A DNA stretch of 64,000 nucleotides from Amphibacillus jilinensis Y1. Its GTDB lineage: Bacteria; Bacillota; Bacilli; Bacillales; Amphibacillaceae. Positions within the stretch are counted from its first letter, which is position 1; each line of letters begins with the position of its first letter. The stretch spans positions 5,188 to 69,187 of the forward strand of contig NZ_JH976441.1 of the NCBI RefSeq assembly GCF_000306965.1. The letters are read 5' to 3'. The position numbers and the translations under genes were made by a program. Shown piece by piece: positions 47,011 to 52,194 of the stretch. Below the pieces are notes generated by a model that saw only the letters and a program-made list of their open reading frames with translations, was not told the origin of the DNA and ran no database searches.

Positions 47011-49656
47011 CTATTTCGCATCATACCATGTAGAACCATAAGCATAGTCAACTTTAAGCGGTACCGCTAATTCAACAGTCTCTTCCATCACTTTTGGAAC
47101 CATTTCCTTTAATATTTCGATTTCCGCTTTTGGTGCTTCTAAGATTAATTCATCATGAACTTGCAACAACATACGAGCTTCCAACCCTTTTGATTTTAAT
47201 GTATGATCAAGATCAATCATTGCCTTCTTGATAATGTCAGCTGCACTTCCTTGGATCGGTGTATTCATAGCTGTTCGTTCAGCAAAACTTCTTTGATTAA
47301 AATTTCGACTTGTAATTTCCGGTAAATAGCGACGTCTACGCATTAATGTCGTGACAAACCCATCTTGTTTTGCCTGAAGAACAACATCATTCATATACGC
47401 CTTCACCCCTGGGTAACTTTCAAGGTAACGATCTATAAATGCCTTGGCTTCTTTACGCGTAATACCTAAGTTTTGAGACAGACCATAATCGCTAATTCCA
47501 TAGACGATACCAAAGTTTACTGCTTTAGCTTGTCGGCGCATGAGATCATTAACTTCTTCTGCACTAACATGAAAAACGTCCATCGCTGTCTGTGTATGGA
47601 TATCACGTCCGGCTTTAAAAGCTTCAATGAGTTTCTCATCATTTGCAATATGCGCTAACACACGCAATTCAATTTGTGAATAATCAGCAGCAAACATCAC
47701 CCACTCGGTTTCACTTGGAATAAAAGCTTGTCTAATCTTACGTCCCTCTTCCAACCTTATCGGTATATTTTGTAAATTAGGCTCTATTGAACTTAACCGA
47801 CCTGTTTGTGTTAATGCTTGATTAAATCGGGTGTGAATCTTCTGATCGTCATGGATCACTTTTAATAAACCTTCAATGTAAGTCGATTGTAGTTTACCCA
47901 ATTGTCGATACAGTAAAAGCTTACCAATAATCGGATGCTTGTTTTCAAGTTGCTCTAACACATCTGCTGAAGTTGAATAACCGGTTTTTGTCTTTTTAAT
48001 GACAGGTAACCCTAGTTTTTCAAATAGAATCGGACCCAGTTGTTTTGGTGAATTCAAATTAAAGGTTTCTCCAGCTAACTCGTGTACCTCTTGTTCAATC
48101 TTATCCAAACGTTCTTTCAGTGCTACTTGCATGTTTTCCAACTGCTTGCGATCTACGGCTACACCTGTTGCTTCCATTTCGCCTAAAATAAGTGCTAGCG
48201 GTAGTTCTAACTCTTTTAATAAAGCTTGCTGTTGATTTTTCTCCAACGATTGCTCTGCCGTATTTGTCAATTGATATAGGGCGGTTGCCTTGCGACCAAT
48301 ATGATCAGCCAAGTGAGCTTGTTCAGGTATTTTTAACTTTGCCCCTTTTCCGTAGACTTCCTCATCATACAAAATCTCATCATAGCCCAAGCGATGACTA
48401 ATCGCCGGTATATCATGATTATTTTCTGAAGGATTGATCAAATATGAAGCTAATAAAAGGTCAAATCTTATTCCTTTTACTTTAATACCATGTTGAAGTA
48501 AAGCTACTGTCACCTGTTTTGAATCAAAGGCAAATTTAATTTGCTCAGGATCTTCTAACCAAGCCTTAAAAGATGTCGAATTTAATGCAATATCAGTAGG
48601 AATAAAATAAGTACTTTCTTTATTAGCAATACCGAAACCAATAATCTCAGCATGATGATAATTGTCTTCAACCATTTCGACCACTAACGCTTCTTTGTTG
48701 TACCAATTTATTTGGTCTACATCCTCAACAATTTTAACATCGATCGGAGCCAAAGCTTCAGACATACTCGCTTCGGTTTGATCATCATCTCCACTGATTG
48801 TATTTAATAATGATTGAAAACCTAAATCTTTAAACAACGCACGTAACTGCATCACATCGTAACCCTGATAATCGATGTCATCTAAGCCAACTTCAATAGG
48901 TGAGGATACATTAATCGTGACAAGGTCTTTACTCATAAAAGCTGAGGCTTTATGCTCGTCTAATTTCTCTTTCAATTTCTTACCACTCACTTCATCAAGG
49001 TGATCATATAAGTGCTCAAGTGTTTGGAATTGCTTGAGTAATTTAATCGCTGTTTTCTCACCTACACCAGGTACACCGGGAATATTATCAGAGCTGTCCC
49101 CCATTAATGCTTTCATATCAATGATCTGGTCAGGATTAAGCTCGATCTTTTCTTTCATAAAGTCTGGTGTATAGACATCAACTTCACTTAACCCTTTTCT
49201 TGTAATTTGGACATGAACGTGATCAGATACTAATTGAAGCATATCTTTATCACCCGTAATGACTCGGACATCATAACCATCAACAGCGGCTTTCTGTGCT
49301 AATGTCCCAATAATATCATCAGCTTCATACTGATCCAGTTGATAATGTTTAATCGAACTTGCATTAAGTAGTTCCTTCACTAAGTTAAATTGTTCGGATA
49401 ACTCAGGTGGGGTTTTTTGTCTTCCACCTTTATAATCCTTATAGGTTTGATGACGGAAAGTTGTTTTCCCCGCATCAAATGCAACTAAAATATGGGTAGG
49501 TGCTTCATCTTCTAATACTTTTAATAACATTTTAGTAAAGCCAAAAACCGCATTTGTGTAAACACCTTTATCATTACTTAGCAAGGGTAAAGCGAAAAAA
49601 GCACGATATAAAATGCTATTTCCATCAATAAGAACTAGCTTTTGTTTAGACGTCAT
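47011..49656 (-). CDS. polA: DNA polymerase I
   Basis: About 881 residues. 5'-3' exonuclease at about 1-290 (KLVLIDGNSILYRAFFALP; GDKDMLQLVSDHV), the 3'-5' exonuclease-like domain at about 310-465, and the polymerase from about 470 (DYSQIELRVLAHIA; RRQAKAVNFGIVYGIS; LQVHDELILEAP). The Asp-x-Glu of a proofreading site is missing: VVEMVED stands where it should be. Loss of proofreading is usual in Bacillus Pol I. ATG 49656 fits AAAAGGAG; ATG 49677 lies before it. Confidence 0.97.
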   Translation of the reverse strand: MTSKQKLVLIDGNSILYRAFFALPLLSNDKGVYTNAVFGFTKMLLKVLEDEAPTHILVAFDAGKTTFRHQTYKDYKGGRQKTPPELSEQFNLVKELLNASSIKHYQLDQYEADDIIGTLAQKAAVDGYDVRVITGDKDMLQLVSDHVHVQITRKGLSEVDVYTPDFMKEKIELNPDQIIDMKALMGDSSDNIPGVPGVGEKTAIKLLKQFQTLEHLYDHLDEVSGKKLKEKLDEHKASAFMSKDLVTINVSSPIEVGLDDIDYQGYDVMQLRALFKDLGFQSLLNTISGDDDQTEASMSEALAPIDVKIVEDVDQINWYNKEALVVEMVEDNYHHAEIIGFGIANKESTYFIPTDIALNSTSFKAWLEDPEQIKFAFDSKQVTVALLQHGIKVKGIRFDLLLASYLINPSENNHDIPAISHRLGYDEILYDEEVYGKGAKLKIPEQAHLADHIGRKATALYQLTNTAEQSLEKNQQQALLKELELPLALILGEMEATGVAVDRKQLENMQVALKERLDKIEQEVHELAGETFNLNSPKQLGPILFEKLGLPVIKKTKTGYSTSADVLEQLENKHPIIGKLLLYRQLGKLQSTYIEGLLKVIHDDQKIHTRFNQALTQTGRLSSIEPNLQNIPIRLEEGRKIRQAFIPSETEWVMFAADYSQIELRVLAHIANDEKLIEAFKAGRDIHTQTAMDVFHVSAEEVNDLMRRQAKAVNFGIVYGISDYGLSQNLGITRKEAKAFIDRYLESYPGVKAYMNDVVLQAKQDGFVTTLMRRRRYLPEITSRNFNQRSFAERTAMNTPIQGSAADIIKKAMIDLDHTLKSKGLEARMLLQVHDELILEAPKAEIEILKEMVPKVMEETVELAVPLKVDYAYGSTWYDAK

Positions 49657-49714
49657 GTTAAATCTCCTTTTATTCAAATACTTACTATATATATTACCAC
49701 GTTTCCTTTTATAA

Positions 49715-49816
49715 AACGAACCTTCAGTCAGTGGGCGTTCGTTATCTCCTGCCTATAGCTGAGCTCTATTCTCTATTTTGAAACGACGGTTTACGGCGGT
49801 TATCTGTGATAAGAAA
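49715..49816 (+). repeat. Interspersed repeat copy F (short)
   Basis: Opens AACGAACCTTCAGTCAGTGG and GCGTTCGTT, so the outer arms ACGAAC/GTTCGT pair. The linker is mostly lost. The tail TACGGCGGTTATCTGTGATA is intact. It lies upstream of polA and upstream of the divergent isochorismatase leader. Confidence 0.7.
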
Positions 49817-49956
49817 AGCTTTCTTTATGCAATAGCTATTCAATACGTAAATTTTATTTTCATTTTTTGAAAATAACTGAAGTAAGTGTGTTATCATTTA
49901 ATGGTCTAATCATTTTCAGTGTTTTTAGATAATTTTTAATTTTGGAGGTAGATATT

Positions 49957-50013
49957 ATGATAAATAAATGCAATGTTAACTTAAAAAACGACAAGGGGAT
50001 TGCGACTAATTAA
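49957..50013 (+). CDS. Leader peptide (18 aa) of the isochorismatase-family gene
   Basis: ATG 49957 follows a very good ribosome site (TTGGAGGTAGATATT). The peptide MINKCNVNLKNDKGIATN ends at TAA 50011-50013, 45 bases before the next gene. The last codons overlap the first arm of a hairpin. This is the layout of a translational attenuator, and the frame is too short to be a structural gene. Confidence 0.6.
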   Translation: MINKCNVNLKNDKGIATN

Positions 50014-50051
50014 TTAAACCCTTTAGCGTGTCCCCAATCTTTGGAAGGGGA
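49995..50051 (+). promoter_or_regulatory. Putative translational attenuator with competing hairpins
   Basis: Arm 1 is GGGGA (49995-49999) inside the leader-peptide codons. Arm 2 is TCCCC (50031-50035). Arm 3 is GGGGA (50047-50051), which is the ribosome site of the hydrolase gene. Arm 1 with 2 extends by CG and CTAA/TTAG pairs; arm 2 with 3 would hide the ribosome site. No T run follows, so control should act on translation. Confidence 0.55.
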
Positions 50052-50058
50052 TAATGAT

Positions 50059-50622
50059 TTGAAACAAATTTTATTAATTATTGATGCACAACAAGCATTA
50101 CTTGATGGAAATCAGCAAGTAAGTCCAATTTACAAAAAAGAACAACTTATTAAGAACGCAAACAAAGTGATTAAAAAATCAAAACAATCAGATGTTGCAG
50201 TTGTATTTGTAAGAGATCTCGATGTCGCTGAAGGAAAAGGTAATGGATTTCACATTCATAGTGACATTCATGTACCCACTGAAGCAAGATTTTTTGATAA
50301 AGCCGCCACAAATTGTTTTTATGGAACAGGGCTGTTAGAACATTTAAAATCACAGGACATTGAGCATATTGTCATAATGGGGTGCGAGACACAGCATTGT
50401 ATAGATAGTGCTGTCAGAACAGCAACTATTAATGGGTTTGATGTCACATTAGTTGGAGATGGACATTCAACGCTAGGTAATGATGTTTTGAGTGCGGAAC
50501 AAATGATAGCACATCATAATGCTACACTTCATGGTCATTACAATGTTGATCACTTTTCGATTGTCAGAGATTCAGAAGAAGCTTTATTTTGTCCAACTCA
50601 CGATTCATATAGGTTAAGCTGA
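50059..50622 (+). CDS. Isochorismatase-family cysteine hydrolase
   Basis: About 187 residues. The Asp-Lys-Cys triad is visible: LLIIDAQQALLDGN (Asp), ARFFDKAATNCFYGTGLLEHL (Lys) and IMGCETQHCIDSAVRTATINGFDVTLVGDGHST (Cys). The family splits amides and similar bonds, for example in nicotinamidases. The substrate is unknown. The likely start is TTG 50059 behind AAGGGG; TTG 50041 is less suited. It is convergent with phoR and lies upstream of polA's start on the opposite strand. Confidence 0.87.
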   Translation: MKQILLIIDAQQALLDGNQQVSPIYKKEQLIKNANKVIKKSKQSDVAVVFVRDLDVAEGKGNGFHIHSDIHVPTEARFFDKAATNCFYGTGLLEHLKSQDIEHIVIMGCETQHCIDSAVRTATINGFDVTLVGDGHSTLGNDVLSAEQMIAHHNATLHGHYNVDHFSIVRDSEEALFCPTHDSYRLS

Positions 50623-50705
50623 AGTATCAGCCTTTTATAGCGTGTGGCTTAGAGCAAAATGTGAAGTTGACCGTTAATCCAACAACTATTTTAGAGCCAA
50701 AATTA

Positions 50706-50748
50706 AAAGTGAATGCTCCATTTAATTTTAAAATGGAGCATTCACTTT
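50706..50748. terminator. Bidirectional terminator between hydrolase gene and phoR
   Basis: A perfect 18-bp stem (50706-50723 with 50731-50748) with arms containing GTGAATGCTCCATTT and its complement, and a seven-base AT loop. It lies between convergent genes. Confidence 0.88.
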
Positions 50749-50814
50749 ATTATGTTTATGATGCAAGTTTATAGAAGATAGTTTTGTATTGTCACTACCT
50801 GTTTACTATAACCT

Positions 50815-52194
50815 TTAGTTAATGGGTAAGCGGACGCTAAATCTTGAACCCTTATTTAACTCACTTTTCACATGAATGGAACCGTGATGTGCCTCGACAA
50901 TGTGCTTAACAATCGCTAATCCCAAACCTGTTCCACCAGTGTTTCGACTTCGCGCTTTATCAACGCGATAAAAACGCTCAAAAATACGACTAAGCATGCT
51001 GCGCGGAATACCAATACCATTATCTTTTATCGCTATTTCAAAAGCGTGATTAATTTTCTTTGCTTCAATGTAGATCGCTCCATCATTGGGTGTATAATTA
51101 ATGGCATTATATAAGAGATTTAAAATCACTTGTTTTAATCGGGCTGCATCTCCTGTCAAGACTAAATCCTCATCAAACTTAAAATTTAACGTAATTGCCT
51201 TTTTCTCGGCTTGACCGCGAACGATATCGATACTGTCTTCAATCAAATTGGCTATATTAACTTTCGATAGCTTCAACTTCATTTCTTCTTTTTCTAGCTT
51301 AGATAATTCCAATAAATCATGAATCAATGCTTGAAGGCGATCGCTCTCGTTGTATATAATCGTTAAAAACTTACGTTGTACAGCTGCATCCGTTGCATCA
51401 TCATCCAAAATTGTTTCTGCAAATCCCTTAATTGAGGTAATAGGTGTTTTAAGTTCGTGAGAGACATTAGCAACAAAATCTTTGCGCATTTGCTCAACTC
51501 TTTTTAAATCGGTAATATCATGAAAGACAAGGACAACACCTCTTAAGTCATGTTTCTCATTAAAGAAAGGCGCTCCAACAATTTCAATATAGCTTTTTTT
51601 CGAATCATGTTCTAAAGTAATCGATTCCTTTACCGTCTGTTCATATAAAAAAGCTTCTTGAACCGTTTGATGAATCTTGCGTCTATCTATCACTTCATAA
51701 TAAAGTTTGTCATGATAATCAGCAACGCTTTTACCGAATTGTTCAGTAAATTTTCGATTAACGAGATGGACATAACCTTGTTCATCGATCAGCATAATAC
51801 CACTTTCCATATTATCAATCACTGTTCGCAATTGCCTATCATGCATCTTCTCTTGGCGATTTAAATCTTGCAAATTACGAGCAAGCCGGTTGACTGAATA
51901 AGCAAGGCGCCCCGTATCATGATGAAAACTCTCTTGCGCTCTTACTTTATAATTCCCTTTTATTAATTCATTTAGAATAGCTGTTATACCTTTAACTGGT
52001 TTCACATAATTAAGGTAAATTTGATAAAACAAAACAATGATAACAGCATAGGATCCTATTAAAATCATTGCGGCAATCGCCCGATCCCCTCCACTCGTTA
52101 ATGGCACAATTAAAGCTAATAAAGCTAAAAAGAGTAAACTTGCGATCACAGCATAGCTGAAAAACAAACGAATAGGGGTTTGTTTCTGCTTCAT
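50815..52194 (-). CDS. phoR: Phosphate sensor histidine kinase PhoR, short form
   Basis: 459 residues against about 579 in B. subtilis. Two helices at about 10-30 and 38-62 are joined by about ten residues (TSGGDRAIAA), so the extracytoplasmic sensor domain is absent. Then HAMP (KPVKGITAILNELIKGNYKVRAQ), PAS (TVIDNMESGIMLIDEQGYVHLVN), HisKA with SHELKTPITSIKG, and HATPase (LYNAINYTPNDG; KDNGIGIPRSML; TGGTGLGLAIVK). It phosphorylates PhoP. Sensing must be by the PAS domain or membrane. It overlaps phoP by four bases. Confidence 0.92.
   Translation of the reverse strand: MKQKQTPIRLFFSYAVIASLLFLALLALIVPLTSGGDRAIAAMILIGSYAVIIVLFYQIYLNYVKPVKGITAILNELIKGNYKVRAQESFHHDTGRLAYSVNRLARNLQDLNRQEKMHDRQLRTVIDNMESGIMLIDEQGYVHLVNRKFTEQFGKSVADYHDKLYYEVIDRRKIHQTVQEAFLYEQTVKESITLEHDSKKSYIEIVGAPFFNEKHDLRGVVLVFHDITDLKRVEQMRKDFVANVSHELKTPITSIKGFAETILDDDATDAAVQRKFLTIIYNESDRLQALIHDLLELSKLEKEEMKLKLSKVNIANLIEDSIDIVRGQAEKKAITLNFKFDEDLVLTGDAARLKQVILNLLYNAINYTPNDGAIYIEAKKINHAFEIAIKDNGIGIPRSMLSRIFERFYRVDKARSRNTGGTGLGLAIVKHIVEAHHGSIHVKSELNKGSRFSVRLPIN

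Follow-up and report, generated by a model that had tools for sequence, protein, structure and literature searches.

A conserved leader frame with three pairing arms, similar to tet(L)/tet(K)-type leaders, precedes an isochorismatase-family hydrolase gene in Bacilli

A gene for an isochorismatase-family hydrolase in Amphibacillus jilinensis Y1 is preceded by a short frame with its own ribosome-binding site (RBS), which raises the question of whether ribosomes on this frame decide if the hydrolase is translated. Based on the window, i.e., the whole 64,000-nucleotide stretch of DNA that was analysed, and on comparison with other Bacilli, we consider it fairly probable that the hydrolase is under translational attenuation by a ribosome-sensing leader of the tet(L)/tet(K)-type kind. 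The locus has a leader frame and pairing arms, both are conserved, the same leader stands before a second gene family, and it is similar to tet(L)-type leaders. The conserved upstream frame and its three arms probably turn the hydrolase on when protein synthesis is disturbed.

The hydrolase locus and its leader

All parts of the leader lie on the forward strand. Its RBS, GGAGG (49944–49948), is kept in both alignments described below (A1 and A2) and serves a frame of 18 codons, from the ATG at 49957 to the TAA at 50011–50013, that is translated as MINKCNVNLKNDKGIATN and a stop; the frame and its good ribosome site, which the first-pass annotation had pointed out, were confirmed. Arm 1, GGGGATTGCGACTA (49995–50008), lies within the final codons of the leader and pairs with arm 2, TAGCGTGTCCCC (50024–50035), which in the alignments is the partner of either arm 1 or arm 3. 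Arm 3, GGAAGGGGAT (50043–50052), is the RBS of the hydrolase gene by sequence and alignments. The first-pass annotation had described short segments, GGGGA (49995–49999), TCCCC (50031–50035) and GGGGA (50047–50051), the second able to pair on either side and the third being the hydrolase RBS. This arrangement holds, and the arm 1/arm 2 helix is longer than had been noted, joining GGGGAnnACGnCUA with UAGCGUUUCCCC over 49995–50008 and 50024–50035. In the window, CCCTTT at 50019–50024 could also pair with arm 1.

The hydrolase gene (50059–50622, forward strand) encodes 187 aa from a TTG start, 45 nt past the leader stop; this distance is 31–47 nt in most of the relatives compared. The protein matches PF00857 with 96.8 bits against a gathering cut-off of 27. 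The earlier proposal that a translated leader with competing pairings stands before a member of this enzyme family is supported. The hydrolase gene is flanked by a polA-like gene in divergent and a phoR-like gene in convergent orientation (names given by eye). Between the hydrolase and the phoR-like gene lies an 18-pair palindrome (50706–50748) that is terminator-like on both strands, a probable two-way terminator; Rfam matches near it score under the cut-off. The Rfam search of 49650–50900 gave ten matches up to E 1, all at 50666–50857 and below gathering, and assigned no family to the leader.

The ordered triple GGGGA, TCCCC (after 5–60 bases) and GGGGA (after 3–30 bases), a pattern set after the segments had been seen, occurs once in the 64 kb, both strands together, and in none of 20,000 dinucleotide shuffles of 49900–50100. 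Single-sequence folding of 49930–50090 in isolation was unremarkable (z -0.11); the evidence for the element is conservation, not fold stability.

The transcript is predicted to start at about 49904, from a conserved extended -10 element, TGTTATCAT (49889–49897, forward strand), with which TATGnTAnAATT upstream of many leaders of the hydrolase and of a second gene family, GNAT, lines up by eye. A simple -35/-10 promoter scan did not list this site, and the promoter claim thus rests on by-eye conservation. Transcription from a point after 49957, which the first-pass annotation had raised, is not indicated, as the predicted start lies upstream. At the predicted mRNA 5' end, an inverted repeat GTCTAA...TTAGAT (49904–49930, forward strand) was recognised by eye; such a repeat, GTCTAA..TTAGACAAT, precedes many hydrolase and GNAT leaders and is a candidate 5' hairpin or operator.

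Conservation of the leader among Bacilli

At E 1e-20, 68 of the 159 family genomes contained a relative of the hydrolase, and 30 loci were kept from them; a further 80 loci, out of 117, came from named genomes. From these 110 loci, 43 were chosen by eye and the 34 distinct ones (nine were identical copies) were aligned from the promoter region to the start codon. Alignment A1 (MAFFT) holds 26 leaders from the leader RBS onward; the eight rows excluded were near copies (L003, L047) or had absent or broken arms (L048, L071, L080, L082, L084, L090). Alignment A2, fitted to the structure, holds 65 leaders, i.e., 58 loci kept from the covariance search described below and seven added by hand.

The nearest hydrolase among named records, that of A. 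cookii, is 98% identical to the window hydrolase, and a within-genus search of two genomes found nothing beyond the near copy. The RBS, frame, arms and gene start are kept in the nearer orthologs, and frame and arms recur before orthologous hydrolases in many Bacilli, the outcome of a conservation check that the first-pass annotation had proposed. The leader start and end hold constant positions in Oceanobacillus, Evansella, Sutcliffiella, Lysinibacillus, Salinibacillus, Cytobacillus and others; length differences are mostly whole codons (by eye), and in L064 the start codon is lost. Forty-six of the 63 ATG-bearing leaders have 18 codons, two further leaders of the 65 having no ATG. For codons 2–12 of 43 leaders of exactly 18 codons, dN/dS was 0.60 in frame vs 0.99 and 0.98 in the other frames; these two frames contain stops in 31 and 39 of the 43, in a set that was selected for an open 18-codon frame. 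This modest coding constraint suggests that leader length and translation probably outweigh the peptide sequence, whose most conserved part is a C-terminal K-G-x-T-[STP]-[NK].

The arm consensus is GGGGAnnACGnCTA for arm 1, TAGCGTTTCCCC for arm 2 and AAAGGGGAAA for arm 3. Within the ACGnCTA of arm 1, the base that varies most freely is the first of codon 17, at which the helix bulges, and this speaks for arm 1:arm 2 pairing. In A2, 86.6% of 761 arm 1:arm 2 cells were paired and 14 cells carried two-sided changes, a number reached by none of 500 shuffles. All six slid controls gave fewer paired cells (33.8–62.8%) and a lower covariation score; one of them (-2) had 11 two-sided cells vs 14. In A1, the paired cells amounted to 86.4% for arms 1:2 and 89.3% of 178 for arms 2:3, percentages not above those of shuffles (92 and 152 of 500 as high), and covariation was weak; three-way pairing restricts covariation. 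Both duplexes were below -6 kcal/mol in 62 of the 65 leaders vs 107 of 650 arm shuffles, with median energies of -14.5 (1:2) and -11.4 (2:3) kcal/mol.

Most of the 80 hydrolase loci in named genomes lack the element. Model R2, into which several of the matching loci had themselves gone, matched 19 of the 80 at E < 1e-6 and a twentieth at 0.076, each match ending at or beside the gene start; no match was found at the Terribacillus, Fictibacillus or Solibacillus loci among them. Distant orthologs (L094, L102, L105, L110, L120, L131, L134, L137; L054, L058, L084, L139) have other small upstream frames with a strong RBS, e.g., after GGGGGCGATATTATG, and by eye no arms of the window type.

A second gene family behind the leader

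R1, a covariance model of the 26 hydrolase leaders in A1, which include no GNAT leader, had matches in 33 of the 159 genomes of the family (E 0.1) and in 36 of 397 genomes of the order (E 0.01). Of the 34 and 40 matches listed, 4 and 10 were not kept, leaving 58 distinct loci, and all 58 precede one of two genes: the hydrolase in 36 (34 assigned by BLASTP, one apparently frame-shifted, and a remnant recognised by eye) and a GNAT acetyltransferase in 22 (one apparently frame-shifted). One of the fourteen matches left out, in G023, is the locus L211 of an APH-family kinase. The GNAT loci, which include L194 and L195 although these are marked H in the codon-conservation table, were identified by shared sequence. 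P0002, the one GNAT run on Pfam, matches PF00583, and its nearest PDB structures are spermine/spermidine acetyltransferases. GNAT and hydrolase belong to different protein families, and the module from promoter to start codon looks common to both on alignment.

The genome of the window has one leader only, remaining R2 matches having E above 6, and its nearest GNAT relative stands at 30%. Nine genomic stretches were fetched, in three of which (L225, L226 and L227, chosen for known proximity and giving no estimate of linkage frequency) hydrolase and GNAT, named by eye, lie within about 15 kb. The leader stands before both genes in L225; the hydrolase of L227 has no leader match, and L226 has a match at one of its two hydrolases. 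Hydrolase and GNAT leaders are about 193 kb apart in G894 and on different contigs in G682 and G744. Plasmid searches with both proteins gave few close matches.

Relation to tet(L)/tet(K)-type leaders

To place the leader among wider kin, R2 was compared with 398 genomes of the class, 22 of which had a match at E 0.05, with 26 matches listed. Sixteen were strong, nine of them at GNATs (one a partial gene at a contig end), six at other hydrolases and one at the window leader. The other ten were weak (E 1.6e-4 to 0.045, with up to about 20 chance matches expected at the limit), and each is followed by a frame of at least 80 codons beginning within 26 bases of the match end. Three of them precede genes for efflux pumps, namely Tet(L) at L216, a pump resembling it by eye at L218 and, again by eye, a Tet-like MFS pump at L217. 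Three others precede ABC exporters, one assigned by Pfam (L215) and two by eye. The rest stand before the APH-family kinase of L211 (PF01636), a kinase-like protein that scores below gathering for PF00069, and two GNATs of a different kind. The leaders of the ABC exporters L215, L219 and L220 form a third subtype, MKNMTNQTVQTYKGVTSSYL-like in L215 and L219, with long competing arms.

R3, a covariance model of six weak-match leaders from which those of the ABC exporters were left out, matched 42 of the 398 class genomes at E 0.01, about 4 being expected by chance. Among the 21 R3 loci read were Tet-type pumps including Tet(K), GNATs, kinase-like genes and the APH locus; L241, close to the end of its contig, showed no long frame. 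Tet(L), queried without its first codon, and Tet(K) passed NCBIfam cut-offs of 925 with 981 and 1029.6 bits. R3 recovered 12 of the 16 strong hydrolase and GNAT leaders, including the window leader, which is not in the model. Within the window, the leader was the best place with 35.0 bits (E 8.3e-5), the next having 17.6 bits (E 0.14), and in the whole genome it was the sole match at E ≤ 0.01 (E 0.005). Leaders of the tet(L) type also stand before genes for two different GNATs (about 307 aa and 192 aa) and for a kinase-like protein (294 and 290 aa) at L248, L250, L255, L249, L214, L242 and L245 (frame shortened in L245); from this position, these proteins may be unrecognised resistance-type gene products.

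The scores favour common descent of the window leader with tet(L)-type leaders; because the six leaders of R3 were picked as weak R2 matches, the likeness could also be convergence on the same parts. Both kinds have a strong leader RBS and a short leader (20 codons in L216, 16 in L253, about 16–21 in most seen), with which the 18 codons and GGAGG of the window agree. Both place arm 1 in the final codons, arm 2 past the stop and arm 3 at the gene's RBS, and covariance models of the two recover each other's members. They differ in that the window gene encodes a hydrolase and not a pump, that its 18-codon leader ends in KGxTxN, and that it lacks a further helix. Most tet(L)-type leaders (L211–L218, L235–L255) have GGGY in the frame and RCCC just past the stop, with matching changes (GGGC/GCCC, GGGT/ACCC, GGGG/CCCC; both partly by eye). 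In a parse of 22 leaders (two had no RBS of the pattern used), six preferred another pairing and two had only 3 pairs. Combined with the arm 1:arm 2 helix, GGGY/RCCC pairing would give an H-type pseudoknot and free the gene's RBS. The window leader has no GGG before arm 1 and so has no GGGY/RCCC helix, which makes it a sister branch instead of the tet(L) type proper. By its sequence, the window leader is best placed with the tet(L)/tet(K)-type leaders, as a branch of its own.

Models of ribosome position

The effect of ribosome position was modelled by equilibrium folding with the ribosome footprint (P site -12 to +15) masked at set codons, and the unpairedness of the gene's RBS was computed. 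Sixty-one of the 65 leaders were modelled (39 hydrolase, 22 GNAT), L064, L167, L169 and L171 being dropped for having no ATG or no frame of 8–23 codons; an earlier run covered 22 leaders. For hydrolase leaders, the median exposure was 0.31 with no ribosome, 0.31 with a ribosome at the start codon, 0.35 at codon 4, 0.02 two codons ahead of the last (late) and 0.04 at the last codon (mean 0.15); the corresponding medians for GNAT leaders were 0.11, 0.23, 0.06, 0.01 and 0.02. Exposure was higher with the ribosome at the start than late in 33 of 39 hydrolase and 20 of 22 GNAT leaders (not so in 6 and 2), and the difference exceeded twofold in 25 and 16, respectively.

In the window, exposure was 0.09 without a ribosome, 0.10 at codon 1, 0.03 at codon 4, 0.23 at codon 7 and 0.00–0.01 from codon 10 on; with other flanks it was 0.06 (none), 0.07 (codon 1), 0.02 (codon 4), 0.00 (late) and 0.00 (last). 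The predicted polarity is clear in many relatives and weak in the window, where the site is mostly closed throughout, partly because CCCTTT competes for arm 1. Given this low modelled exposure, a switch in the window would have to be kinetic: arms 1 and 2 are transcribed before arm 3, which would favour opening while arm 1 is free. The models thus predict that a ribosome near the leader end closes the hydrolase RBS, and that the site opens through a free arm 1 when the ribosome stalls early or is absent.

Discussion

In the mechanism that we propose, ribosomes running to the end of the 18-codon leader would cover arm 1, arm 2 would then pair with arm 3, and the hydrolase RBS would be hidden. 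A translation inhibitor, which is the likely inducer, would hold ribosomes at or near the leader start and leave arm 1 free to form the longer 1:2 helix while the RNA emerges, so that the hydrolase RBS would stay open. Tetracycline is the inducer of tet(L)/tet(K)-type leaders. At toiL, the uORF of E. coli topAI, stalls at the start codon by tetracycline and retapamulin are reported to suffice, and uORFs are said there to take part in the regulation of tetracycline resistance (PMC12121999). That report also describes, as proposed here, stalled uORF ribosomes that alter pairing at a downstream RBS; in toiL, however, the uORF pairs with the RBS directly and any stall opens it, whereas arm 1 of the window would be anti-sequestering (PMC12121999).

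The same parts could serve translational reinitiation, in which the leader recruits ribosomes, RNA folding passes a ribosome from the leader end to the hydrolase RBS, and slowing raises the transfer. Such a model has reportedly been proposed for tetA(L), whose kind of leader the window leader resembles, and the 45 nt from leader stop to hydrolase start would suit it; reinitiation at leader peptides has also been put forward in general (PMC4833913). We regard it as unlikely, though worth keeping in view: the hydrolase has a strong RBS of its own, which makes a transfer needless, and folding predicts closure when a ribosome is at the leader end. The polarity suggested by the first-pass annotation was that of erm and cat leaders, where a stalled ribosome masks an arm that otherwise shuts the gene's RBS. 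The window leader would share with these leaders the translational attenuation of a resistance gene, or here a candidate one, by a leader ribosome. In detail the likeness did not hold, since masking arm 1 of the window type lowers exposure in most models, a prediction of closure and not of opening. A nascent-peptide stall near KGxTxN that frees the RBS would explain why this is the best-conserved part of the peptide, and in a few leaders (L042, L075) arm 2 is near enough to the leader stop to be reached by a ribosome there. The motif is also arm 1, however, so that pairing accounts for its conservation, the first base of codon 17 varies, and late ribosomes shut the RBS in most models; we find this opposite polarity improbable.

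A shortage of an amino acid, which the first-pass annotation had offered as an alternative inducer, would be read by the same trp-like logic, in which a late ribosome turns the gene off and an early stall turns it on. Across the 65 leaders, though, no single-amino-acid or single-codon run recurs before arm 1, save the Asn/Lys codons of the A-rich start, and the downstream genes examined belong to hydrolase, GNAT and resistance-type families instead of biosynthesis, making this reading very doubtful. That frame and pairing arose by chance, with no regulation, agrees with the unremarkable isolated fold; conservation over genera and two gene families and the frame-specific constraint leave it scarcely credible, and it was rejected on the R1 matches before GNATs and the R3 recovery of hydrolase and GNAT leaders.

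The ribosome-sensing attenuator would fit an enzyme acting on the inhibitor or on a related toxic compound, in line with the pumps and acetyltransferases whose genes have such leaders. Isochorismatase-like hydrolases are defined by an Asp-Lys-Cys triad. The corresponding D9, K81 and C114 of the window hydrolase are each kept in 97% or more of 111 sequences, a set that includes near duplicates, and C114 aligns with the 5ha8 residue whose Cys is replaced by Ala in 5hwg. As tetracycline-pump and acetyltransferase genes in other Bacilli have a switch of this kind before them, the hydrolase may be an unrecognised drug-defence enzyme. SttH, likewise an isochorismatase-like hydrolase, is described as inactivating a ribosome-targeting drug, streptothricin, by opening its streptolidine lactam, and acetyltransferases for this drug are also known (PMC11702664). 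Together, these suggest by analogy that hydrolase and GNAT could act on one drug. SttH differs in coming from Streptomyces and in a high KM that suggests a side activity (PMC11702664), and the two enzymes are likened here by description. Among the literature matches listed, no leader was described for this hydrolase or GNAT.

More tentatively, the tetracycline-pump kind of leader might be a general ribosome-inhibitor switch of a hidden defence regulon in Bacilli, with hydrolase and GNAT as two so far unrecognised inactivating enzymes for one ribosome-targeting natural product, e.g., one of the streptothricin kind; we think this clearly less probable than the attenuator itself and more likely wrong than right. 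If the switch works as proposed, a searchable motif would mark genes that are switched on by ribosome poisoning, and the leader would give a ready reporter with which to find the drug. Two enzyme families found in many soil and salt-loving Bacilli would then be likely drug-modifying enzymes, tied to the leaders of common tetracycline pumps.
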